DNA of 20,079 nucleotides from a virus: IMG/VR virus record IMGVR_UViG_3300006854_000131, positions 1-20,079 of that record, one strand, 5' to 3'. Made by a program: the position numbers and the translations under genes. The notes beneath the pieces were generated by a model that had not been told where the DNA came from, ran no database searches, and worked only from the letters and a program-made list of their open reading frames with translations. Shown here piece after piece: positions 2,789-17,716 of this stretch. Within the stretch, counting starts at the first letter, position 1. The number at the start of each line of letters is the position of its first letter.

Positions 2789-4833
2789 TATGAAGTTCTC
2801 ATATAATCCCAAGCAACTAAGGTCCAGCCGTTTACTGTTACCATCTGGTCAGACGCGTCTACAAACTGCATTCTGCATCTAAAGCCTTGGCTGTTATTAC
2901 CAGCGATATCGACTCTGTAATCTTCTTCGGCTGTATCTACAGCAACGAATGGAAACGACGTAAATCCTGAACTGTCGAAAGCAATTTTAATTACAGGACT
3001 TGATGACGCAGGCAAGTCACCCTGTAGTAGCAGCCACTTTAGCGCTTTCTTCAGACCAGGAGAGCCAAAGTGAAGAACTGGAAACTCTACAGTCATGGTA
3101 ACAGCGTTTCCGCCAGTGCCGTCGAAAAGCACGTCATCAAGTACGGTTGTCGTACTTGATGTTGTTTGTACGTCCATTATGCGTATAAAGCCGTCTGTGC
3201 CGCCACTTAGTATGTTAGGTATACCTGATATATCTGTATACTTACATAACGAAGTCATGCCGAAGCTATATGCCCATGGACCTTGCCAGCTTTGTAGTCT
3301 AACGCTTTGTATAAACAAAGTCTTGTTTGACCCACCATCGCTGGTTCTAGGTACAAGGAACCAAAGTTCTTTACGTCCGCGGTGATATTCTATAGCCGAC
3401 GTTCCTAGGTTAACGGTGTCTAAACTGAACCAATCAGGATTAAGCTGCTCACCCATTGGATCAGCATAGGTTTCTGTAGCTGCATATGGACCACGTTCAC
3501 TTAGAAACGCGCATACGTTCTCGAATCTCTTAATCGCATACGGGCCTACAACGCCTACGTCTGTTGTAATGCCTTCTGTGTCCTGGCTAATCACGATGTC
3601 ATCAGAAGCATGGCCAGTAAAGCGCATTACGGAATCTTTAGTTCCCATTAACAATGACGAGCCTATGACTTCAAAGCTGACTAGAGCGTTACCTGTCAAG
3701 AAATCTGTAACAGCAAAGCCACCATCGGCCTTAGTTAACGGTGTCCATGTCGTAGGATCACCGATCTTGGACCAAAATAGCGTCTTAGGTGTACTCGTTT
3801 GCGTTGCGAATGCTCTTGTATGATATGCTATCAATGCATTAGCCGCAGGAGCGCCATTTGTCGGGTCTAGTTGCGTTAATGTCGTGGTACCATCCCAGAC
3901 CCATAGATGTCCACCGCTACTGAAGTATAGCTTTAGCTTTGCATTAGCTGCAGGATCGCGGAATGGCATAAAGAAGACAGGACCGCTGAAACCACCGCCT
4001 GCTGTATTCCAGCTAAACGCGCTTCGGCTACTACCGTTCTTCATTGTTACCGTACCAGTAGCGGTACCGGACCAATTACCATTTGTCGTTACTGTTAGGA
4101 CTATTCTAAACCATACATGCGTAGGAGAGCCGCTGACTGTAAAGGCTTGATTATTATACGTAGTCGTATTAACAACGCCAACGCTAGCAGTTACTTGATA
4201 TGCAGAACCGACATTAACCCAAGTACCGCCGCTGTCTGTAGAAACTTGGAATTGGACGCTTGTTGTAAGTAGTAAATAAATACCAGATGTACCTGTACCA
4301 TCGGCTTTAACGCTAAATGAATCTACGACATATACATCATCACTAGCATCTACGTTTGAACCTTCTGTCTGGTTCGGATCGCCTAGTTTAACGGTCAACC
4401 CGCCTGTATTCGTGCTGGTACCATTAGTTGTCCTACTTAACGAGCAAATACCATCATCAGAACCGCAAGTATCAGTCCAAGCAAATTTCGGATCAGTGCC
4501 GTTGGCCGTAGACTTAACTGTAGCAGTTGGTGTTTTAGAGCTAAAGGCAACGGTATAATCGAAACCGTCGCGGTAGTATAGCTTACCATTTGCAATAGCA
4601 ACAACTTGTTTACCATTCGGCCCGTCCCACTGAGTTAGACCGTCTATAGAAGCACCTAATGCTGTCTGATGTATGCGCTGGCAACCTGTGCGTTTAGAAA
4701 AGCCACCGTAGACTGTAGATAAACGCGTATTAGTGCAATCGACTAGTTCGTTAGGATTCAACAAATCAGTCGAGATTGCAGTATTTCTACCGCCTCTGAA
4801 GTCGTATCGTGATTCGGTAACTACGCGTTTCAT
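2788..4833 (-). CDS. Tail nozzle / stabilisation-like protein (T7 gp12 / P22 gp10 type)
   Basis: 681 residues, the largest virion gene in view. The start ATG overlaps the upstream TGA (ATGA). The N-terminal region, with LLNPNELVDCTNTRLS then YGGFSKRTGC, resembles openings I know from tail nozzle or head-completion 'stabilisation' proteins of short-tailed phages. The middle is long and beta-rich with many Thr/Ser/Gly and aromatic residues, suggesting a propeller or beta-sandwich body. It follows the adaptor gene, the same order as T7 gp11-gp12. Function rests on the N-terminal pattern, size and position. A large tailspike is less likely because the next gene carries the jelly roll. Confidence 0.72.
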   Translation of the reverse strand: MKRVVTESRYDFRGGRNTAISTDLLNPNELVDCTNTRLSTVYGGFSKRTGCQRIHQTALGASIDGLTQWDGPNGKQVVAIANGKLYYRDGFDYTVAFSSKTPTATVKSTANGTDPKFAWTDTCGSDDGICSLSRTTNGTSTNTGGLTVKLGDPNQTEGSNVDASDDVYVVDSFSVKADGTGTSGIYLLLTTSVQFQVSTDSGGTWVNVGSAYQVTASVGVVNTTTYNNQAFTVSGSPTHVWFRIVLTVTTNGNWSGTATGTVTMKNGSSRSAFSWNTAGGGFSGPVFFMPFRDPAANAKLKLYFSSGGHLWVWDGTTTLTQLDPTNGAPAANALIAYHTRAFATQTSTPKTLFWSKIGDPTTWTPLTKADGGFAVTDFLTGNALVSFEVIGSSLLMGTKDSVMRFTGHASDDIVISQDTEGITTDVGVVGPYAIKRFENVCAFLSERGPYAATETYADPMGEQLNPDWFSLDTVNLGTSAIEYHRGRKELWFLVPRTSDGGSNKTLFIQSVRLQSWQGPWAYSFGMTSLCKYTDISGIPNILSGGTDGFIRIMDVQTTSSTTTVLDDVLFDGTGGNAVTMTVEFPVLHFGSPGLKKALKWLLLQGDLPASSSPVIKIAFDSSGFTSFPFVAVDTAEEDYRVDIAGNNSQGFRCRMQFVDASDQMVTVNGWTLVAWDYMRTS

Positions 4834-7986: not shown

Positions 7987-9264
7987 TTATGCGAAGACAG
8001 GTGAGTAGTTAACCGTGTCTGTGATGCCGCTGATTACGCCTTGTGACAAGCGGTTCAGAACACCATAGTTCCAGTAAGCTGCGAATACAGCTTCCCATGC
8101 GTCACGGTTAGAAACACGCTGCCACTTAGGCGCGTCTTGGAACGAGATTTCACCGAAATCCATCAGGTCGATGAATACGGTATCAGGTCCATAAACGCTA
8201 TATAGTCTACCACGAGGAGCCCAAGGGTCATCTACGAGCGTTGCATTAGCTACCTGCACGCCTGTAAAACCACCCTTAAGTTCCATCTGAGGAGCGCTGA
8301 ATCTACGTAGGCCTAGTAGCGATTCGCCGTATGCCTGCCAAATACCCGTGCTCGTTAGAAGCAGCATGTTCTTTGGAGACTTACGCCAATCGACACCTGC
8401 ACGAGCGCGGATTGTATTCAAGAGTTTCATAACGATAGTTTCATCAACTGTCGTAGAAACGATCTTGTTTGCAACCCAACGTGGATCGTTCAGGCCTTCG
8501 AACGTTGCGAATGCAGCTTCAACGTCCATGATTGACTTTAGGCCGTGTGGTTCGGCACCAAACGATGTGTCGTTAGCATCTACTGCTGTTGGTACTGCTG
8601 TAACGATTAGATCGTTTGCTACCTGGCCTGCTACTGCTGTAGTATAGTTGAACGTTACGTTATCGCCGCTTACTGTATGGCTTAGAATCTGTGTCTTGCC
8701 ACGTAGAGCGAAAGTCGTACCGTTTAGAACTGCGATGTCATCACCATCAACTAGGTGAAGGTTACCGATACCTGCGCCTGTAATGCCGTATGGAGCGCTG
8801 GCGATTACCTGCGTTGTTGAGTTGACAGTACCGATAACTGCACGAATGCCTAGTGAGTCAGAGTGCAGGATTCTTTCCTGCTCAATTTCCCACTGGTCCA
8901 TTACGTCTTCAACGATTTTCTTAGCTGCTGAGATGTAGCTACCCTTTTCGTTATTCGTAGCCTTCAGCGCCAGACCGTCTACTTGAACCTTTGCGTAAGT
9001 TCTAGCTACTGACAGACGACCTTGCTTTTCTCTAGCGATACGAGAAGTAGGCAGGAAGCCTGCTGCGCTTGAAACAAATCCGCCTCTACGTTCTACCTTT
9101 ACGTCGAAGAACAGGTCGTTACCAGCGTAGGTAACGTGTTCAGGACCTAGCTTGCGAGCTTGAGCAAGCAAGACGGTATTGATAGGGAAGATTTTCTTAC
9201 GGATAGGTAGGTAAACGTTCTTTAGGACTGGTGTAAAGTCCTGTAGAATCTGTGGATCAGCCAT
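7987..9264 (-). CDS. Major capsid protein (HK97-fold type)
   Basis: 425 residues, the first gene of the virion operon, downstream of a strong minus-strand promoter. The N-terminal arm (residues 1-60) has no obvious scaffold or protease domain. Residues about 85-130 give the long 'spine' helix region (NEKGSYISAAKKIVEDVMDQ), followed by a large beta-rich domain. The C-terminal part has MLLLTSTGIWQAYGESLLGL and a terminal segment with RDAWEAVFAAYWNYGVLNR, typical of capsid proteins in short-tailed phages. Length, position and pattern fit a major capsid protein. The ribosome binding site is weak (GGACAATC). Confidence 0.85.
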   Translation of the reverse strand: MADPQILQDFTPVLKNVYLPIRKKIFPINTVLLAQARKLGPEHVTYAGNDLFFDVKVERRGGFVSSAAGFLPTSRIAREKQGRLSVARTYAKVQVDGLALKATNNEKGSYISAAKKIVEDVMDQWEIEQERILHSDSLGIRAVIGTVNSTTQVIASAPYGITGAGIGNLHLVDGDDIAVLNGTTFALRGKTQILSHTVSGDNVTFNYTTAVAGQVANDLIVTAVPTAVDANDTSFGAEPHGLKSIMDVEAAFATFEGLNDPRWVANKIVSTTVDETIVMKLLNTIRARAGVDWRKSPKNMLLLTSTGIWQAYGESLLGLRRFSAPQMELKGGFTGVQVANATLVDDPWAPRGRLYSVYGPDTVFIDLMDFGEISFQDAPKWQRVSNRDAWEAVFAAYWNYGVLNRLSQGVISGITDTVNYSPVFA

Positions 9265-10219: not shown

Positions 10220-10293
10220 CGAGATTCGGGCTCAAGGTGGGCCACCGCACTTGGAATGCGGGCATCAGGTTGGTTCGATTCCAGCAATCTCGA
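10220..10293 (+). tRNA. tRNA-Pro (TGG)
   Basis: Full cloverleaf: acceptor CGAGATT/AATCTCG, anticodon stem CCGCA/TGCGG with loop CTTGGAA (anticodon TGG), T loop TTCGATT. No encoded CCA. It starts 2 nt after the leader RNA. Confidence 0.9.
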
Positions 10294-10296
10294 CTA

Positions 10297-10366
10297 TAGC
10301 GTAATAATGCCAAGATGGTTTACACACACAATGGTACCGTAGAAACTTCAGTCGGTTATTGCGCTA
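10297..10366 (+). ncRNA. Structured spacer RNA between tRNA-Pro and tRNA-Cys
   Basis: Positions 10297-10307 pair with 10356-10366 over 11 bp (one G-U). Inside, TGCCA can pair with TGGTA, or GCCA with TGGT as a smaller hairpin. There is no T-loop motif or tRNA-like anticodon arm, so it is not a tRNA. It fills the gap exactly, 3 nt from each tRNA. Confidence 0.5.
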
Positions 10367-10369
10367 CAT

Positions 10370-10440
10370 CTGCTGTTGGTTGAGTGGTTAAACGGGCGTC
10401 TGCAAAACGCCATAGGTTGGTTCGATTCCAACACAGTAGT
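10370..10440 (+). tRNA. tRNA-Cys (GCA)
   Basis: Acceptor CTGCTGT/ACAGTAG with one G-U pair, anticodon stem GGCGT/ACGCC with loop CTGCAAA (anticodon GCA), T arm GTTGG/CCAAC. No encoded CCA. Confidence 0.9.
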
Positions 10441-10443
10441 CTT

Positions 10444-10500
10444 TGTCAGTAGGCCCTCCAAGGCTTACGAGCGTGGAGCTTTACTTCATCCTTACTGGCA
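10444..10500 (+). ncRNA. Structured spacer RNA between tRNA-Cys and tRNA-His
   Basis: TGTCAGTA (10444-10451) pairs with TACTGGCA (10493-10500) over 8 bp with one G-U pair. An inner stem CTCCA/TGGAG encloses a small GCT-TACG-AGC hairpin. It spans the gap between two tRNAs and lacks tRNA motifs. Confidence 0.45.
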
Positions 10501-10505
10501 ATTAA

Positions 10506-10579
10506 CAGGTACGTGGCCTAGTCGGTAAAGGCATTGGGCTGTGAACCCAAGGAAGTAGGTTCGAATCCTACCTACCTGA
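10506..10579 (+). tRNA. tRNA-His (GTG)
   Basis: Anticodon stem TTGGG/CCCAA with loop CTGTGAA (anticodon GTG), T arm GTAGG/CCTAC. The acceptor CAGGTAC/CTACCTG has a C-C mismatch at its base. The extra G-1 usual in tRNA-His is not encoded opposite position 73, which is A. No CCA. Confidence 0.85.
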
Positions 10580-10582
10580 TAC

Positions 10583-10654
10583 GTCGCTTTCGTCTAGTGG
10601 CTAAGACCGATGGCTTTCAACCATCAAAAGAGGGGTCGGAACCCTCAAGCGATA
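10583..10654 (+). tRNA. tRNA-Glu (TTC)
   Basis: Acceptor GTCGCTT/AAGCGAT, D stem GTC/GAC, anticodon stem GATGG/CCATC with loop CTTTCAA (anticodon TTC), T arm GAGGG/CCCTC. The T loop GTCGGAA is atypical. No CCA. Confidence 0.88.
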
Positions 10655-10656
10655 TC

Positions 10657-10703
10657 ATGTCGGTTGCGGCTTTCCGACATTTCAGATATAAACATTCAGC
10701 CGC
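10657..10703 (+). ncRNA. H-type pseudoknot RNA between tRNA-Glu and tRNA-Gly
   Basis: Stem 1 is ATGTCGG/CCGACAT (10657-10663 with 10674-10680, 7 bp perfect). Its 10-nt loop contains GCGGCT (10666-10671), which pairs perfectly with AGCCGC (10698-10703) 17 nt downstream of stem 1. The element starts 3 nt after tRNA-Glu and ends 4 nt before tRNA-Gly. Confidence 0.6.
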
Positions 10704-10707
10704 TTAC

Positions 10708-10779
10708 GTTAGTGTGGTATAAAGGGCGTGCCTCTGGCTTCCAACCAGAAGAATGCAGGTTCGAGTCCTGTCGCTAACT
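10708..10779 (+). tRNA. tRNA-Gly (TCC)
   Basis: Acceptor GTTAGTG/CGCTAAC, anticodon stem TCTGG/CCAGA with loop CTTCCAA (anticodon TCC), T arm GCAGG/CCTGT. No CCA. Confidence 0.9.
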
Positions 10780-10785
10780 CTAGAC

Positions 10786-10856
10786 GCGGTAGAGATGTTG
10801 TGGTGGCATGCTACGTTGCCAACGTAGATGGGCGAGTCCGATTCTCGCTTACCGCA
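10786..10856 (+). tRNA. tRNA-Gly (GCC)
   Basis: Acceptor GCGGTAG/TTACCGC, anticodon stem CTACG/CGTAG with loop TTGCCAA (anticodon GCC), T arm GCGAG/CTCGC with loop TCCGATT. The D stem is short (ATG/CAT). No CCA. Confidence 0.87.
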
Positions 10857-10867
10857 TTTGTTTAACG

Positions 10868-10937
10868 GGGCTGGTAGTCGTTAGCTGTGAGCTTAGTCAT
10901 CCCTTCAGCAAGGACCTAAGCAAGAGCCTGCCAGCCC
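10868..10937 (+). ncRNA. Structured spacer RNA between tRNA-Gly and tRNA-Val
   Basis: GGGCTGGTAG (10868-10877) pairs with CTGCCAGCCC (10928-10937) over 10 bp with one G-U. Inside, GCTTAG/CTAAGC (10891-10896 with 10916-10921) carries a CCTT-CAGC-AAGG tip. No tRNA motif is present. Confidence 0.55.
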
Positions 10938-10949
10938 ATTTATGCTTAC

Positions 10950-11022
10950 TGCTCGGTCGCCTAATGGTATGGCATCTGTCCTACACACAGAACAAGTTAG
11001 GGTTCGAGTCCCTACTGAGCAA
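10950..11022 (+). tRNA. tRNA-Val (TAC)
   Basis: Acceptor TGCTCGG/CTGAGCA, D stem GCC/GGC, anticodon stem TCTGT/ACAGA with loop CCTACAC (anticodon TAC), T arm TAGGG/CCCTA. No CCA. Confidence 0.88.
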
Positions 11023-11026
11023 TTTA

Positions 11027-11099
11027 GTGTCGATGGCGAAATGGTTATCGCATCGGTCTTTTAAACCGTAAGTTCATGGTTCGAGTCCATGTCGGCACA
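11027..11099 (+). tRNA. tRNA-Lys (TTT)
   Basis: Acceptor GTGTCGA/TCGGCAC, D stem GCG/CGC, anticodon stem TCGGT/ACCGT with loop CTTTTAA (anticodon TTT), T arm CATGG/CCATG. No CCA. Confidence 0.9.
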
Positions 11100-11103
11100 C
11101 TAG

Positions 11104-11176
11104 AGCAGATTGGTCCAGCGGCTACGACGCTTGGCTCATAACCAAGAAATCATGGGTTCGAATCCCATATCTGCCA
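11104..11176 (+). tRNA. tRNA-Met (CAT), probably elongator
   Basis: Anticodon stem CTTGG/CCAAG with loop CTCATAA (anticodon CAT), T arm ATGGG/CCCAT. The acceptor AGCAGAT/ATCTGCC has an A-C mismatch at 1-72, an initiator-like position, but the three G-C anticodon-stem pairs of initiators are not complete. Because a separate Ile (TAT) gene reads AUA, Met is more likely than lysidine-type Ile. Confidence 0.8.
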
Positions 11177-11204
11177 TTTAGCTATAAGTTATCTGATATC
11201 TAAA

Positions 11205-11303
11205 GCTCTGGTGGCGAAACGGTAAACGCGGTTGTCTTAAAAACAACTGAAACGCATCTGGCTCAAAACCAGTTGACTGAGAGTTCGAATCTCTCCTAGA
11301 GCA
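11205..11303 (+). tRNA. tRNA-Leu (TAA) with a second anticodon-like arm
   Basis: Acceptor GCTCTGG/CTAGAGC, anticodon stem GTTGT/ACAAC with loop CTTAAAA (anticodon TAA), T arm GAGAG/CTCTC. The region between anticodon and T arms is about 31 nt, twice the usual class II length. It contains CTGG-CTCAAAA-CCAG (11258-11272), whose loop reads as a CAA (Leu) anticodon. AAACGC precedes both arms (11224 and 11250), 26 nt apart, as if the arm had been duplicated. Confidence 0.8.
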
Positions 11304-11304
11304 C

Positions 11305-11378
11305 TGGCGTGTAGCTCAATCGGTTGGAGCAATCGGCTTATATCCGAAAGGCTGTGGGTTCAAGTCCCACCATGCCGA
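11305..11378 (+). tRNA. tRNA-Ile (TAT)
   Basis: Acceptor TGGCGTG/CATGCCG, D stem GCTC/GAGC, anticodon stem ATCGG/CCGAA (outer A-A mismatch) with loop CTTATAT (anticodon TAT, reading AUA), T arm GTGGG/CCCAC. It begins 2 nt after tRNA-Leu. Confidence 0.85.
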
Positions 11379-11382
11379 CTGT

Positions 11383-11455
11383 GGTAGTGTGAGGTTAGCG
11401 GATAGCCTGCTGAGCTTGTACCTCAGTCGCATTGGTTCGAATCCAATCTCTACCT
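11383..11455 (+). tRNA. tRNA-Thr (TGT)
   Basis: Acceptor GGTAGTG/CTCTACC with one T-T mismatch, anticodon stem CTGAG/CTCAG with loop CTTGTAC (anticodon TGT), T arm ATTGG/CCAAT. No CCA. Confidence 0.87.
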
Positions 11456-11456
11456 T

Positions 11457-11528
11457 GCTTTGTTAGTTGTAGTGGCAACACGGGGTCTTGGTAAGACTCA
11501 ATCGCAGGTTCGATTCCTGCACTTAGCT
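11457..11528 (+). tRNA. tRNA-Thr (GGT), acceptor with mismatches
   Basis: Anticodon stem GGGTC/GACTC with loop TTGGTAA (anticodon GGT), D arm GTTG/CAAC, T arm GCAGG/CCTGC. The acceptor GCTTTGT/ACTTAGC has two adjacent T-T mismatches, shared exactly with tRNA-Thr (CGT). An alternative 5' end at 11462 gives a better acceptor but a truncated D arm. Confidence 0.78.
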
Positions 11529-11532
11529 CTTT

Positions 11533-11605
11533 GCGTTGCTGGCGGAATGGCATACGCGGTAGTCTTAGAAACTACTTTCTGAAGGTTCGAGTCCTTCGCG
11601 ACGCA
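11533..11605 (+). tRNA. tRNA-Leu (TAG) with a short variable loop
   Basis: Acceptor GCGTTGC/GCGACGC, D stem GCG/CGC, anticodon stem GTAGT/ACTAC with loop CTTAGAA (anticodon TAG, reading CUA), T arm GAAGG/CCTTC. The variable loop is only 5 nt (TTTCT), unlike the long class II arm normally present in bacterial tRNA-Leu. Position 73 is A. Confidence 0.82.
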
Positions 11606-11606
11606 T

Positions 11607-11678
11607 TGGTTGCAAGCATTAATGGTGATGCAATCGGCTCTTAACCGATAGAACACGGGTCAGTACCGTGGCAGCCAA
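11607..11678 (+). tRNA. tRNA-Lys (CTT)
   Basis: Acceptor TGGTTGC/GCAGCCA, D stem GCAT/ATGC, anticodon stem ATCGG/CCGAT with loop CTCTTAA (anticodon CTT), T arm CACGG/CCGTG with the unusual loop GTCAGTA lacking the TTC motif. No CCA. Confidence 0.83.
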
Positions 11679-11681
11679 CTT

Positions 11682-11755
11682 GGTCGATTGGCGGAATAGG
11701 TTACCGCACTCGTCTGATACACGAGAGGCTCGTGGTTCGAATCCACGATTGACCA
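11682..11755 (+). tRNA. tRNA-Ile (GAT)
   Basis: Acceptor GGTCGAT/ATTGACC, D stem GCG/CGC, anticodon stem CTCGT/ACGAG with loop CTGATAC (anticodon GAT), T arm CGTGG/CCACG. Confidence 0.9.
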
Positions 11756-11757
11756 CT

Positions 11758-11857
11758 ATAGACAACTGGACGTGGGAATCTGTGACCTAGGCACTACGGG
11801 GACCCACCGAACTTGCCTCGAACAAGGTAGCGGTAATCCTCCGCGAATGTTGTCTAT
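11758..11857 (+). ncRNA. Four-helix structured RNA between tRNA-Ile and tRNA-Thr
   Basis: ATAGACAAC (11758-11766) pairs perfectly with GTTGTCTAT (11849-11857). Three further hairpins lie inside: GTGGG/CCCAC (11772-11776 with 11803-11807), CTTG-CCTCGAA-CAAG (11812-11826) and GCGG-TAATCCT-CCGC (11830-11844). The four-way layout with two 7-nt loops mimics a tRNA cloverleaf, but the T-loop motif is absent and the D-side arm is too large. It could be a derived tRNA-like RNA or an unrelated compact RNA. Confidence 0.55.
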
Positions 11858-11859
11858 TT

Positions 11860-11930
11860 GCTTTGTTCGTCTAGTGGTAAGACGGTAGTTTCGTAAACTA
11901 CTAACGTTGGTTCGATTCCAACACTTAGCT
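11860..11930 (+). tRNA. tRNA-Thr (CGT), acceptor with mismatches
   Basis: D stem GTCT/AGAC, anticodon stem GTAGT/ACTAC with loop TTCGTAA (anticodon CGT), T arm GTTGG/CCAAC. The acceptor GCTTTGT/ACTTAGC contains the same two adjacent T-T mismatches as tRNA-Thr (GGT). Confidence 0.8.
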
Positions 11931-11937
11931 CTCTAAC

Positions 11938-12016
11938 GGTAGTCGAGCAGCAATGGTGCTGCAGGTGGCTGTAACCCACTGGCTTCGGCAGCTAGGTTCG
12001 ATCCCTAGGATTACCA
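11938..12016 (+). tRNA. tRNA-Tyr (GTA)
   Basis: Acceptor GGTAGTC/GATTACC, D stem GCAGC/GCTGC, anticodon stem GGTGG/CCACT with loop CTGTAAC (anticodon GTA), an 11-nt class II variable region, T arm CTAGG/CCTAG. Confidence 0.9.
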
Positions 12017-12018
12017 CT

Positions 12019-12102
12019 GGTTAATTGGCCGAGAGGCTGATGGCGCGTGTTTGCTAAACACGTTTGCGTAAAGCAACGAAGGTTCGAATCCTTCATTAAC
12101 CG
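12019..12102 (+). tRNA. tRNA-Ser (GCT)
   Basis: Acceptor GGTTAAT/ATTAACC perfect, D stem GCC/GGC, anticodon stem CGTGT/ACACG with loop TTGCTAA (anticodon GCT), class II variable arm TTGC/GCAA, T arm GAAGG/CCTTC, G at position 73 as usual for Ser. Confidence 0.92.
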
Positions 12103-12105
12103 CTT

Positions 12106-12160
12106 GGCTGTCATGGCAGCCGTTCTAGATGTAAACGATACTGACGAGTATCGACCATGA
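12106..12160 (+). ncRNA. Pseudoknotted RNA between the two tRNA-Ser genes
   Basis: Hairpin GGCTG/CAGCC (12106-12110 with 12117-12121) has the loop TCATGG, all six bases of which pair with CCATGA (12155-12160). Between them lies a perfect 7-bp hairpin CGATACT-GACG-AGTATCG (12136-12153). The element ends 2 nt before tRNA-Ser (TGA). Confidence 0.55.
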
Positions 12161-12162
12161 AT

Positions 12163-12245
12163 GGAAATTGTCCGGCTGGTCGAGGACGCAGTCTTGAAAA
12201 CTGTTGGGTGTAAAAGCCTCGGGGGTTCGAGTCCCTCAGTTTCCG
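12163..12245 (+). tRNA. tRNA-Ser (TGA)
   Basis: Acceptor GGAAATT/AGTTTCC, anticodon stem GCAGT/ACTGT with loop CTTGAAA (anticodon TGA), class II variable region of about 16 nt, T arm GGGGG/CCCTC, G at position 73. Confidence 0.9.
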
Positions 12246-12254
12246 CTTAGCACG

Positions 12255-12324
12255 ACGTGGTTGCCTAGACTCCACGTTACCAAAAGCTAGCGTGGTTTCC
12301 AGGGTTACCACGTTAAACACCTGG
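12255..12324 (+). ncRNA. Hairpin plus H-type pseudoknot before tRNA-Asp
   Basis: A first hairpin ACGTGG/CCACGT (12255-12260 with 12272-12277) is followed by an 8-bp stem AGCGTGGT/ACCACGTT (12289-12296 with 12307-12314). In its 10-nt loop CCAGG (12299-12303) pairs with CCTGG (12320-12324). The 10-nt loop with flanking T residues resembles the pseudoknot at 10657-10703. It ends 3 nt before tRNA-Asp. Confidence 0.55.
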
Positions 12325-12327
12325 TCT

Positions 12328-12401
12328 GCGATTTTAGCGTAGAGGCTTAACGCGCTGCCCTGTCACGGCAGAGAACGAGGGTTCGAATCCCTCAAGTCGC
12401 G
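12328..12401 (+). tRNA. tRNA-Asp (GTC)
   Basis: Acceptor GCGATTT/AAGTCGC, D stem GCG/CGC, anticodon stem CTGCC/GGCAG with loop CTGTCAC (anticodon GTC), T arm GAGGG/CCCTC, G at position 73. Confidence 0.9.
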
Positions 12402-12404
12402 CTT

Positions 12405-12473
12405 CTCGATGTGCGTTTGGACCGCAACTACGTTTCTACCGTAGCCAAGAGGGTTCGACTCCTTCCGTCGGGA
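12405..12473 (+). tRNA. tRNA-Arg (TCT)
   Basis: Acceptor CTCGATG/CGTCGGG, short D arm GCG/CGC, anticodon stem CTACG/CGTAG with loop TTTCTAC (anticodon TCT, reading AGA), T arm GAGGG/CCTTC. AGA and AGG appear common in the phage genes. Confidence 0.83.
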
Positions 12474-12479
12474 CTTTTA

Positions 12480-12552
12480 GCTGTGCTGGTGTAACTGGTG
12501 TGCACTAGGCGCTGAAGACGCCAAGGTTGGGGTTCGATTCCCTGGGACAGCA
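12480..12552 (+). tRNA. tRNA-Phe (GAA)
   Basis: Acceptor GCTGTGC/GGACAGC with one G-G mismatch, anticodon stem with GGCG/CGCC and loop CTGAAGA (anticodon GAA), T arm TGGGG/CCCTG. Confidence 0.85.
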
Positions 12553-12555
12553 TTT

Positions 12556-12627
12556 CTGGTCGTAAGCTAACGGATAGACGGCTTGTCTTCGAAACAGGCA
12601 GTGGTGGTTCGATTCCACCCGACTAGA
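12556..12627 (+). tRNA. tRNA-Arg (TCG)
   Basis: Acceptor CTGGTCG/CGACTAG, anticodon stem CTTGT/ACAGG with loop CTTCGAA (anticodon TCG), T arm GGTGG/CCACC. Confidence 0.87.
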
Positions 12628-12628
12628 C

Positions 12629-12700
12629 TTGGTCGTAGTGTAAAGGATAACACAGAAGTCTACGAAACTTCTAATCAGGGTTCGAGTCCCTGCTACCAAA
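12629..12700 (+). tRNA. tRNA-Arg (ACG)
   Basis: Acceptor TTGGTCG/CTACCAA with one C-T mismatch, D stem GTG/CAC, anticodon stem GAAGT/ACTTC with loop CTACGAA (anticodon ACG, normally deaminated to ICG by host TadA), T arm CAGGG/CCCTG. Confidence 0.87.
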
Positions 12701-12701
12701 C

Positions 12702-12772
12702 TGGTCTGTCGTCTAACGGCAGGATGTTAGTCTCTGAAACTAACGATCTTGGTTCGAATCCAAGTGGACCAA
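12702..12772 (+). tRNA. tRNA-Gln (CTG)
   Basis: Acceptor TGGTCTG/TGGACCA, anticodon stem TTAGT/ACTAA with loop CTCTGAA (anticodon CTG), T arm CTTGG/CCAAG. It starts 2 nt after tRNA-Arg (ACG). Confidence 0.88.
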
Positions 12773-12773
12773 T

Positions 12774-12841
12774 TTGCTACGTGAATCCAACCGCCTTATA
12801 AGCGGCATCGTCTAGGACAATGACGTGAAAGGTCGTAGCAA
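12774..12841 (+). ncRNA. Structured spacer RNA between tRNA-Gln and tRNA-Asn
   Basis: TTGCTACG (12774-12781) pairs perfectly with CGTAGCAA (12834-12841). Inside are CCGC-CTTATAA-GCGG (12791-12805), whose 7-nt loop looks like an anticodon loop, and CGTC/GACG (12809-12812 with 12822-12825). No T arm is present, so it is not a functional tRNA. Confidence 0.5.
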
Positions 12842-12845
12842 CCTA

Positions 12846-12917
12846 TGGCTTTTGGGCGAATGGCAAGTCGTGCGGCTGTTAACCGTTAAGATGTAGGTTC
12901 GAATCCTACAGAGCCAG
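12846..12917 (+). tRNA. tRNA-Asn (GTT)
   Basis: Acceptor TGGCTTT/AGAGCCA, anticodon loop CTGTTAA (anticodon GTT) on a weak stem TGCGG/CCGTT with an outer T-T mismatch, T arm GTAGG/CCTAC, G at position 73. Confidence 0.85.
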
Positions 12918-12919
12918 TT

Positions 12920-13180
12920 GTTGATTGTTCGACCTGTAGCTGTTTCGGCTAGTAGCACTGGCCTTCATGATGCAAGGCTGCTATTAGCTCAGCGCAGACA
13001 ACAGAGGAAGTTCGCGACTGCTAGAGGGATTTGCCTAGCGAGATGGTACACTCGTTAAATAGACCCTAGGCGAAGCAATGCAGCAACCCAAACAGGAGAT
13101 TGACTGACCCTCGGTAACTCCGGGTTGGGGCTTAGACAGATTACAGGATAGAACAGAATCGCGGCTATGGAATAATCAAC
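12920..13180 (+). ncRNA. rnpB: RNase P RNA candidate (phage-encoded)
   Basis: RNase P RNA is the ribozyme that cuts the 5' leader from precursor tRNAs. P1 is GTTGATT/AATCAAC (12920-12926 with 13174-13180). P2 is CCTGTA/TACAGG (12933-12938 with 13142-13147). P3 is a long hairpin, GCTAGTAGC/GCTATTAGC with GCCTT/AAGGC inside (12948-12988). Conserved region I, GAGGAAGTTCGCGA (13004-13017), and region V, ACAGAATCGCGGCTA (13153-13167), form P4 with a bulged U in the place of E. coli U69. AGACAGAT (13134-13141) resembles CR-IV. GCCTAG/CTAGGC encloses a hairpin like P7 with its branches, and GGTA (13113-13116) resembles the L15 tRNA-binding loop. At 261 nt it is much shorter than bacterial forms (about 350-400 nt), so peripheral helices are missing. 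Confidence 0.82.
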
Positions 13181-13183
13181 AAT

Positions 13184-13255
13184 GGGCGATTGGCGTAATC
13201 GGGAACGTATCGGTCCTGCACACCGAAGTCAAGGGTTCGACTCCCTTATTGTCCA
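13184..13255 (+). tRNA. tRNA-Ala (TGC)
   Basis: Acceptor GGGCGAT/ATTGTCC with two G-U pairs, D arm GCG/CGT, anticodon stem TCGGT/ACCGA with loop CCTGCAC (anticodon TGC), T arm AAGGG/CCCTT. It starts 3 nt after the RNase P RNA candidate. Confidence 0.88.
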
Positions 13256-13258
13256 CTT

Positions 13259-13331
13259 GAGTTGTAGGTCATAAAGGCATGACGCTAGTCTCCAAAACTA
13301 GAAACACTAGGTTCGATTCCTAGACAACTCG
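13259..13331 (+). tRNA. tRNA-Trp (CCA)
   Basis: Acceptor GAGTTGT/ACAACTC perfect, D stem GTC/GAC, anticodon stem CTAGT/ACTAG with loop CTCCAAA (anticodon CCA), T arm CTAGG/CCTAG, G at position 73. Confidence 0.92.
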
Positions 13332-13334
13332 TTT

Positions 13335-13490
13335 ATGTTACCATCCATGATTCCACCAACGCAGCAGCCATCTACTTGTCCAACTTGCGGTAGATGTCCT
13401 ACATGTGGACAGCCGTATCCAGTATTCTATCCGTACAATTATCCATGGTATCCGTATACTATAACATGGTCGTCTCAAACGAATAAGTAA
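13335..13490 (+). CDS. 51-residue Cys/Pro/Tyr-rich protein inside the tRNA array
   Basis: An ATG 4 nt after tRNA-Trp opens a 51-residue frame that stops 5 nt before tRNA-Gln (TTG). Residues 14-26 hold a doubled motif, CPTCGRCPTCG, giving four cysteines as in a small zinc-binding knuckle. The rest is Pro/Tyr/Trp-rich (YPVFYPYNYPWYPY). The repeated motif and tight fit between tRNAs support a real gene, but there is no clear ribosome binding site and I do not know its function. Confidence 0.55.
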   Translation: MLPSMIPPTQQPSTCPTCGRCPTCGQPYPVFYPYNYPWYPYTITWSSQTNK

Positions 13491-13494
13491 ACAC

Positions 13495-13566
13495 TGGAAT
13501 GTCGTTTAACTGGCAGGACCGTGGACTTTGAATCCACCAGTCTAGGTTCGAATCCTAGCGTTCCAA
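13495..13566 (+). tRNA. tRNA-Gln (TTG), last of the array
   Basis: Acceptor TGGAATG/CGTTCCA, anticodon stem GTGGA/TCCAC with loop CTTTGAA (anticodon TTG), T arm CTAGG/CCTAG. It follows the small ORF directly. Confidence 0.9.
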
Positions 13567-15730: not shown

Positions 15731-16822
15731 ATGCCAGTTATCAGTAGTAGCAGAACGCAGAATTGCACGAATTGCCATCAAGGCATTACGCCATACAATG
15801 GCTTTCATACGCCAGAAGGCGGTTACGTTTGCCTAAGCTGTCGTAGATTGCGTGTTGTATGCGACTACTGCGGTGATATCCTGACTGAAGGGGAGGAGAC
15901 GTTTTCGGTCTACTCAAGCCCTACTACAACGCAGGATATCTGCAGAGGCTGCTTTGATAACAACAGTCATTGCTGCAGTCAATGCGGTAGGTATAGCATT
16001 GACAACGACAGGTGCCCTTTTTGCCCTCGTGATGTAGAGAGTTACGATTACTGGCCTAGGTTGCAATTCTATAAGGCCAAGGGCGAAACGAAAGCACCGT
16101 ATTACTTCGGTTTCGAGCTAGAAGTCGAGCACGAAGATGGGCCACCGTCACCGATGCCAGCTTTCGTATTCTGCAAGGATGACGGTAGTCTGAATAGCGG
16201 CTATGAAGTTGTATCGCATCCGGTATCGCCAGCTTGGATTAGAGAGCATAAGCCTGAGCTAAAGGCTTTGCTGACTAAGCTGAAAGAAAACGGAGCGATG
16301 AGCTACAACACGCGAACCTGCGGTATGCATGTTCACGTATCGCGGACTGCGTTTGACGGTACGTTTCATCTATTCAAGTTTCTCGAAATGTTCTACCGTC
16401 ACGCAGGCTGGACATTGCTTATCAGTCAACGCAAAGAGGAATTGCTAGACAGATGGGCAACGTGTGGTGCGTCGTTTGGTGACGTTATCCGCAAAGCGAA
16501 AGCAAAGATGAATGGCCATGATTCGCGGTATACAGCCGTGAATCTGGAAAACGATGAGACTGTCGAAGTGCGTGTATTCAGAGGTACGTTAGGCTCTACA
16601 TCGTTCTTTAAGAATCTACAGTACGTAGAGGCTATCGTTGAATTCACGCGAGAGTCAAGCAGGTTGAAAGTTAGCCCGAAAGACTTTAGGCAATGGGTGT
16701 TGCTACGTGAAAAGCAGTATCCTGACCTAGTCAATTGGCTAAAGACAAGAGGACACATGGAAGGTTTCAGAGTCAATCTGAAAGCACAACTAAACCAAAA
16801 CGATGACGAGGAGGTGAGCTAG
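15731..16822 (+). CDS. Amidoligase-family protein with N-terminal zinc knuckles
   Basis: 363 residues with an excellent AAGGAGGTGA 9 nt upstream. Residues 12-98 contain six Cys-x2-Cys pairs (12/15, 34/37, 44/47, 71/74, 82/85, 95/98), a multi-knuckle zinc region. The catalytic part begins with FGFELEVE (126-133), followed by DGSLNSGYEVVSHP (151-164), CGMHVHV (197-203) and, near residue 280, VEVRVFRGTL. These are hallmarks of the COOH-NH2 ligase (amidoligase) family related to glutamine synthetase, which uses ATP to join a carboxyl group to an amine. The substrate is unknown. The next gene can supply ammonia from glutamine. The zinc region may recognise a protein or RNA target. Confidence 0.82.
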   Translation: MPVISSSRTQNCTNCHQGITPYNGFHTPEGGYVCLSCRRLRVVCDYCGDILTEGEETFSVYSSPTTTQDICRGCFDNNSHCCSQCGRYSIDNDRCPFCPRDVESYDYWPRLQFYKAKGETKAPYYFGFELEVEHEDGPPSPMPAFVFCKDDGSLNSGYEVVSHPVSPAWIREHKPELKALLTKLKENGAMSYNTRTCGMHVHVSRTAFDGTFHLFKFLEMFYRHAGWTLLISQRKEELLDRWATCGASFGDVIRKAKAKMNGHDSRYTAVNLENDETVEVRVFRGTLGSTSFFKNLQYVEAIVEFTRESSRLKVSPKDFRQWVLLREKQYPDLVNWLKTRGHMEGFRVNLKAQLNQNDDEEVS

Positions 16823-16825
16823 AGA

Positions 16826-17716
16826 ATGTGCGTAGCGATACATGCTCCTGCTACAGCAGAGCTTATTCCGGTTGAAGATTTCGAACTAATGCGCCAAGAG
16901 AACGGCGACGGAATGGGCATGATGTATGCGGAGAACGGAAAGCTCAAAGTAATCCGTCAGCTACGCCGTGTTAAGCGATTCTGGGCAAAGTATAAGAGAC
17001 TACATGAGAAGGGGTTAGATGTAGTCATACACTTTCGCCTAGCTACGCATGGTGATAAGACCTTGCGTAACGTGCATCCGATTCATGTCAGTGGTAATCT
17101 GGCTTTAGTCCACAATGGTATCTTCAGTGGCTTTAGCCAGAAGGATATACGCAGCGATACGCGGCAGTTTGTTGATACGGTATTAAAGCAATTGCCTGAC
17201 GGCTGGTATACGAATGATAAGGCATGGGAGCTTATCAGCTATACTACGTCTGGCTCTAAGCTGATCTTTATGGACGCCAATGGTACCGTGAAGATCATGC
17301 ACGAGAAGGATGGTAGCACAGTAGACGGCAATTGGTACAGTAATCGCTACTGGAAGTGGTCGTATACACACGATTACTATACCGGATACAATCATCACCG
17401 GAGGGGTCTTTCTCGCTGGTGGCAGGACGATGAGGGGGATTATCATATCCCTATTAGCAAGGTACCAGAGAAGGACGAAAGCGTTGTAAGCTGGAACGGC
17501 GAAGTAGCGTCTGGTGCGTTCTTACACTGGCCTACAGGCAGAGTTGTCTGTGAGTCATGTAGGAAGGAAGTGCTGGGAATGGAAGCGGATATGTACTTTC
17601 AGACGCTATGGGATGATGGAGAGCCTATCGTGTGTGACGTATGCGATAGGTGCGTGAATCATGACACGATGTTGCTATTGGCTGCGGGATCGTCAATGGC
17701 AGGAGAGGTGTCGTAA
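16826..17716 (+). CDS. Class II glutamine amidotransferase
   Basis: 296 residues. Removing Met1 exposes Cys2, the N-terminal nucleophile of class II (Ntn) glutamine amidotransferases. HFRLATHG (69-76), NVHPIHV (82-88), LALVHNGIF (92-100) and DTRQFVDTVL match the family's substrate-binding motifs. A C-terminal extension carries CESC and CDVCDRC, probably a zinc site. The enzyme hydrolyses glutamine and passes ammonia to a partner. The gene starts 3 nt after the amidoligase with AGGAGGTGA inside that gene's end, so the two are very likely partners making an amide product. Confidence 0.85.
   Translation: MCVAIHAPATAELIPVEDFELMRQENGDGMGMMYAENGKLKVIRQLRRVKRFWAKYKRLHEKGLDVVIHFRLATHGDKTLRNVHPIHVSGNLALVHNGIFSGFSQKDIRSDTRQFVDTVLKQLPDGWYTNDKAWELISYTTSGSKLIFMDANGTVKIMHEKDGSTVDGNWYSNRYWKWSYTHDYYTGYNHHRRGLSRWWQDDEGDYHIPISKVPEKDESVVSWNGEVASGAFLHWPTGRVVCESCRKEVLGMEADMYFQTLWDDGEPIVCDVCDRCVNHDTMLLLAAGSSMAGEVS

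Follow-up and report, generated by a model that had tools for sequence, protein, structure and literature searches.

RNase P, the RNA enzyme by which cells trim their tRNAs, ranks with one other as a classic ribozyme of almost universal occurrence. To our knowledge, viruses were not known to carry it and have been assumed to borrow the cellular enzyme. A 20,079-nt stretch of viral DNA (positions 1 to 20,079 of IMG/VR record IMGVR_UViG_3300006854_000131; hereafter the window) raises the question of whether a phage may instead encode an RNase P RNA of its own amid its tRNA genes, as a first-pass annotation made from the letters alone had proposed. We found no earlier phage-encoded RNase P RNA in the open-access literature, and a 2024 review of RNase P, in which the host enzyme is taken to process phage tRNAs, does not report one.

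The RNA gene fills a gap in a packed tRNA array

The gene in question sits between two tRNA genes of a long array:

10220..13566, plus strand: tRNA array, 28 tRNAs by ARAGORN and 2 extra by Rfam
12846..12917, plus strand: tRNA-Asn (ARAGORN), directly upstream of the RNase P RNA
12918..13182, plus strand: phage RNase P RNA gene, 265 nt, matched by covariance model R1 (see below), with ends taken from the 13-bp P1 and the flanking tRNAs
13184..13256, plus strand: tRNA-Ala (ARAGORN), directly downstream of the RNase P RNA

Gaps within the array measure 10 nt or less in 18 of 29 cases and zero in two, and CCA is mostly unencoded in the tRNA genes. The P1 helix begins at the first base past tRNA-Asn and stops one base short of tRNA-Ala, so that the RNA occupies the whole space between them; the ends originally assigned, 12920 and 13180, must be moved outward to 12918 and 13182.

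The tRNA-operon location was borne out, and it recurs in close relatives. These were found by a search with the capsid protein, whose one named relative, from Cellulosimicrobium phage DS1, is remote (22%), except for L023, which was found by sequence pattern. The RNA adjoins tRNA-Asn in L001 (the window's virus or one almost identical), L002, L007, and L012 and lies between tRNA-Gln and tRNA-Ala in L023, with the same gene neighborhood around it in L002, L007, L012, and L023. No RNase P RNA was found in the available contigs of L003, L004, and L010, which are close relatives with 28 tRNAs, or in that of L006, implying that it is dispensable or replaced there. L006 (4602-7529) is itself a close relative, with 92% capsid identity and only 3 ARAGORN tRNAs versus about 30 in the others. 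A tRNA nucleotidyltransferase was not found in the 50-kb relatives of the window phage.

Several further features of the window deserve mention. A 99-nt tRNA-Leu(UAA) at 11205-11303, overlooked by ARAGORN and scoring 58 bits with Rfam, carries in its variable region a second anticodon-arm-like hairpin (CTGG-CTCAAAA-CCAG, with a CAA loop) and looks as if fused from two tRNA-Leu genes. At 12774-12842 lies a tRNA-like element (TTGCTAC...GTAGCAA, anticodon arm CCGC-CTTATAA-GCGG) with no recognizable D arm, called by neither ARAGORN nor Rfam, and at 11608-11677 a weak tRNA-Lys(CUU) with an odd T loop, whose 27 bits fall slightly under the Rfam cut-off. Outside the array, amidoligase-like (PF12224, E=4e-9) and glutamine-amidotransferase-like genes are adjacent at 15731-17716.

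A class A catalytic core with a single short specificity arm

The following parts of the RNA could be assigned, all on the plus strand:

12918..12930: P1 5' strand, TTGTTGATTGTTC, pairs with 13170-13182 (from sequence)
12933..12939: P2 5' strand, CCTGTAG, pairs with 13141-13147
12940..13004: P3, CTG (12940-12942) with CAG (13002-13004)
13004..13018: CR-I, GAGGAAGTTCGCGAC, J3/4 plus P4 5' strand (GAGG AAGU U CGCGA C)
13009-13017 with 13159-13166: P4 pairing, bulged U at 13012 equivalent to E. coli U69
13018..13021: P5 5' strand, CTGC, pairs with GCAG 13080-13083 (from sequence and P5 covariation)
13024..13028: P6 5' strand, GAGGG, pseudoknot with CCCTC 13108-13112 in L17, a class A feature
13033..13075: reduced specificity arm (from the fold and helices 7 and 8 of alignment A1)
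13082..13095: CR-III-like AGCAA, P15 5' strand CCC, and L15 AAACA (from comparison with E. coli rnpB)
13095..13121: P16/P17 hairpin with the P6 3' strand within its loop (A1 helices 10 and 11)
13122..13129: 3' side of L15, GGGUU, and P15 3' strand GGG (from comparison with E. coli)
13133..13141: CR-IV, UAGACAGAU, aligned to E. coli UAGAUGAAU at 327-335
13141..13147: P2 3' strand, TTACAGG, pairs with 12933-12939
13153..13167: CR-V, ACAGAATCGCGGCTA (ACAGAAUCGCGGCUA), including the P4 3' strand
13170..13182: P1 3' strand, GAATAATCAACAA (from sequence)

Most of the structure that the first-pass annotation had read into the segment is thus present: helices P1, P2, and P3, the pairing of CR-I with CR-V as P4 around one bulged U matching U69, and the resemblance to CR-IV. 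It had misplaced L15, naming a GGTA loop; L15 is instead represented by GGGUU at 13122-13126, opposite E. coli GGGUA 291-295 in the alignment. The window's P1 comprises 13 bp including one G-U, while its P3 is enlarged by an inserted hairpin where most relatives have 3 bp and a tetraloop. Together with the crossing of P2 and P4 and the position of CR-IV before P2', these helices satisfy what we required of an RNase P RNA. When the segment was folded, as the annotation had suggested, its stability was above that of all 200 shuffles (z = -4.0).

P4 has the normal layout of 3 pairs, bulge, and 5 pairs, backed by the huge phage LR756502, which has U-A in place of the Y-G pair; a P4 one pair shorter than the bacterial helix was considered and rejected after re-registering on the invariant U. 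A13085 and A13086 correspond to E. coli A248 and A249, and GGU 13123-13125 to E. coli G292-U294, which binds the CCA of tRNA. In CR-IV, the window carries a G where E. coli and most relatives have A333. The arrangement P15-L15(GGU)-P16-P17 with the P6 pseudoknot meets the definition of class A. A complete S domain, comprising P7-P12 and the motifs that bind the T loop, is missing: the stretch from P5 to P5' measures only 66 nt, with a single arm of one P7-like stem and one short hairpin in its place.

Covariation across phages supports the fold

Independent evidence was obtained from an alignment of 27 phage members (A1), from which the window's own group was excluded, and a covariance model (R1) built from it. 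R1 matches the window RNA with 81.2 bits (E=5.5e-20) and also L002, L007, L012, L023, and newly found loci. That a model made from other phages only should recognize the window so strongly supports the call of a phage-encoded RNase P RNA, as do compensatory changes in P4. Note that R1 placed the window's P1/P2 at 12981, wrongly because the window's P3 is long; the true P1 is at 12918.

A1 supports P1, P2, P3, P4, P5, P6 (as a pseudoknot into L17), P7, one short arm, and P15-P16-P17, with no P8-P14. Overall, 87.4% of its cells pair, both sides change at 45 of 56 pairs, and the covariation score is 0.608 versus 0.174 for shuffled and at most 0.172 for slid alignments. P2 is 100% paired, and both sides change at all nine pairs of P1 and all six of P6. 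For P6, a control swapping loops between sequences did not discriminate, since the sequences are related, whereas the column covariation in A1 does.

For P4, the test used three pairs left unconstrained by the relaxed scans. These are Watson-Crick in 146/147 cases, compared with a mean of 86.8 and a maximum of 112 in shuffles, and all of G-C, A-U, U-A, and C-G occur. The bulged U is present in every one of the 59 distinct core sequences, the L15 GGU is invariant in A1, and J3/4 GAGG, U69, AGCAA, L15 GGU, CR-IV, and CR-V are preserved among members. Related phages with unconserved CR-I and CR-V or a broken P4 would have refuted the proposal; they display the opposite, conserved CR-I and CR-V and a P4 held by compensatory changes. 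One member, L106, carries a second, partial copy of the RNA (3207-3539, 40.1 bits) adjoining the first.

Standard models miss the RNA

The Rfam search by which the annotation had proposed to verify its call gave no usable RNase P match at gathering or relaxed thresholds. Over the whole window, with E up to 1, only tRNAs and chance matches were returned; RF00010 (gathering score 100 bits) gave no match, and a narrow scan yielded only RNaseP-T (RF02357), at 18.3 bits and E=0.05, short of its gathering score of 60 bits. Since no other family member tested reaches an Rfam RNase P gathering score, we attribute the near-miss to loss of the S domain. When named phages were searched with the segment by BLASTN, a tRNA was the only match.

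Searched with R1, the E. coli rnpB locus (1 kb) gave rnpB itself as the best match, on the correct strand (E=1.7e-4) and in register from P15 through CR-V. Members retain, relative to E. coli rnpB, GAGG, U69, AGCAA (A248, A249), the L15 GGU (292-294), the CR-IV AGA, and CR-V ACAGAA with P4. Among 20 Bacteroidota rnpB loci, R1 detected three, weakly (best E=0.03), with the top two matches inside rnpB. The phage RNA thus shows homology with a cellular counterpart in E. coli rnpB, with only a weak signal on Bacteroidota.

The closest known type is bacterial class A (RF00010, E. coli M1 RNA), which shares P1-P7, P15-P17, P4 with its bulged U, the P6 pseudoknot into L17, A248/A249, the L15 GGU, CR-IV, and CR-V; some phage members, such as DLP6, even have a P18-like insert as in class A. 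Unlike class A, the phage RNA is about 195-265 nt rather than 377 nt, has one short arm for the S domain (P8-P14), usually has a P3 of 3 bp and a tetraloop, stays under Rfam thresholds, and is known only from phages or phage-like contigs. Archaeal type T (RF02357, Thermoproteaceae), the sole Rfam RNase P family giving any match to the window RNA, likewise combines a degenerate S domain with a kept P6 (PMC5839562), but the phage RNA has a bacterial-type P15-L15-P16-P17 and no archaeal setting. RNase P RNAs of CPR bacteria (PMC8172020) are comparable in being missed by standard models and in having lost helices, including P12 in some; they are cellular, however, and two thirds lack the L15 UGG, whereas the phage family retains GGU. 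Loss of the S domain need not abolish activity: the E. coli C domain cleaves substrates without it, the P. furiosus C domain does so without protein, and P6 aids C-domain cleavage (PMC5839562).

A family seen so far in phage and phage-like contigs only

A first scan with a CR-I/CR-V DNA pattern returned 21 viral contigs, and with three more scans the total reached about 70, comprising 59 distinct core sequences. Members reside mostly in or beside tRNA arrays: a tRNA directly adjoins the RNA at 27 of 45 loci, and 27-74 tRNAs occur in 11 of the 12 scanned whole records carrying it (the exception being L038). At L014, L026, L038-L040, L051, and L052, the RNA lies kilobases from tRNAs or in tRNA-free loci. 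The 494-kb contig of L014 also encodes a CUA-anticodon tRNA (8568-8641), called tRNA-Pyl, a possible stop-codon suppressor.

By BLASTN, unannotated copies were identified in the cultured Stenotrophomonas phage DLP6 (KU682439.2, 105774-106017) and in three huge phages, LR756501 (735 kb), LR756502 (642 kb), and LR756511 (595 kb); RNase P is not mentioned in the DLP6 paper, nor an RNase P RNA in the text of the huge-phage paper (PMC7162821). In cells, the DNA pattern had 0 matches across 84,980 bacterial and archaeal species. A relaxed pattern had one; the contig concerned, 11 kb long and rich in tRNAs, had been binned with a Flavobacteriales MAG and most likely belongs to a phage. In 60 other Bacteroidota genomes, R1 found two marginal partial matches only (E about 0.01). 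The family has so far been found only in phages or phage-like contigs.

One phage also encodes the protein subunit

RnpA was not found in the window family or DLP6, nor in 43 further records, and the window family therefore does not qualify as encoding a holoenzyme. LR756502, in contrast, has both the RNA and an RnpA, which scores above the TIGR00188 cut-off and carries the motif KRAVDRNRVKRLMRE. Since most members lack an RnpA of their own, we infer that they would use that of the host.

Two side observations concern possible CCA-adding functions. A weak CCA-nucleotidyltransferase-like ORF (L115 521-1992; LR756502 524020-525491) lies a few small genes before the RnpA gene, and the two possibly form a tRNA-maturation cluster. 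In DLP6, an ORF near 124.9 kb (L076 1405-2004) weakly matches the poly(A) polymerase/CCA-enzyme head domain (PF01743, E=4.5e-5, below cut-off) and is directly preceded by a similar-looking ORF.

Proposed function and alternatives

The sequence, structure, covariation, distribution, and genomic setting of the RNA, and the RnpA gene of one relative, are established by these data. On this basis, we are highly confident that 12918-13182 encodes a minimal, class A-derived RNase P RNA, most likely active with host RnpA on phage tRNAs, while transcription, catalysis, protein partner, self-release, and phage benefit are inferred. The annotation's reading was largely right, although catalysis and the reason it offered, a limiting host RNase P, likewise remain inferences.

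Most likely, the RNA would be transcribed with the tRNA array and come free when the tRNAs on either side are processed; by cutting at the 5' end of tRNA-Ala, it may liberate its own 3' end. Folded as an active ribozyme, most likely with host RnpA, it would cleave the roughly 30 phage tRNAs at their 5' ends, each cut freeing tRNAs and nearly forming the 3' end of the preceding one. Unusual phage tRNAs may be well served by an RNA that has lost the domain binding the T loop. The T4 tRNA cluster is likewise tightly packed, with partly CCA-less tRNAs requiring RNase P, but T4 depends on the host enzyme (PMC11143913), unlike what we propose for the window phage. Theta (HDV-like) ribozymes beside phage tRNAs are also phage encoded and proposed to mature phage tRNAs, but they self-cleave at tRNA 3' ends and have an unrelated fold (PMC10879173).

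P3, P15, CR-IV, and CR-V belong to the C domain, the part that contacts RnpA. The retention of just this domain without the S domain, along with the missing RnpA in almost all members, could also fit a noncleaving decoy that soaks up host RnpA or binds tRNAs and so restrains host RNase P during takeover. We regard this as improbable, because active-site and CCA-binding letters are invariant: a decoy has no need for the bulged U (59/59), J3/4 GAGG, or L15 GGU, nor for a place in a tRNA array, and one phage supplies RnpA too.

Alternatively, an RNase P-derived RNA might have taken on another task (regulation, other substrates, or RNA stability) and lie near tRNAs by history. The lost T-loop-binding domain and the members kilobases from tRNAs or in tRNA-free loci would agree with this, but the invariance of the CCA-binding GGU in A1 and the tRNA-rich genomes (27-74) of most whole records, L038 excepted, make it more doubtful still. 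That a host rnpB fragment was acquired by recombination and is decaying or misassembled, as the lack of Rfam recognition and the single copy in the window might suggest, we consider scarcely tenable: compensatory changes over 59 distinct core sequences contradict it, as do the shared neighborhood in independent related contigs and the absence of any cellular match in 84,980 species save one probable phage contig.

Implications

We thus see in the phage RNase P RNA a known kind of molecule in a new, minimal, virus-owned form. Probably, it represents an old, separate, phage-restricted class A type without S domain, spread over phages of 50 kb to 735 kb, which would work as a hybrid with host RnpA (in one 642-kb phage, as a fully viral holoenzyme), take over tRNA maturation, and release itself. 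Standard annotation misses this RNA entirely, so it is probably commoner than recorded. With a virus-owned RNA in cultured as well as giant phages, the minimal natural size of RNase P without a specificity domain becomes testable, as do the working of a viral RNA with a host protein subunit and the reason for large phage tRNA arrays.
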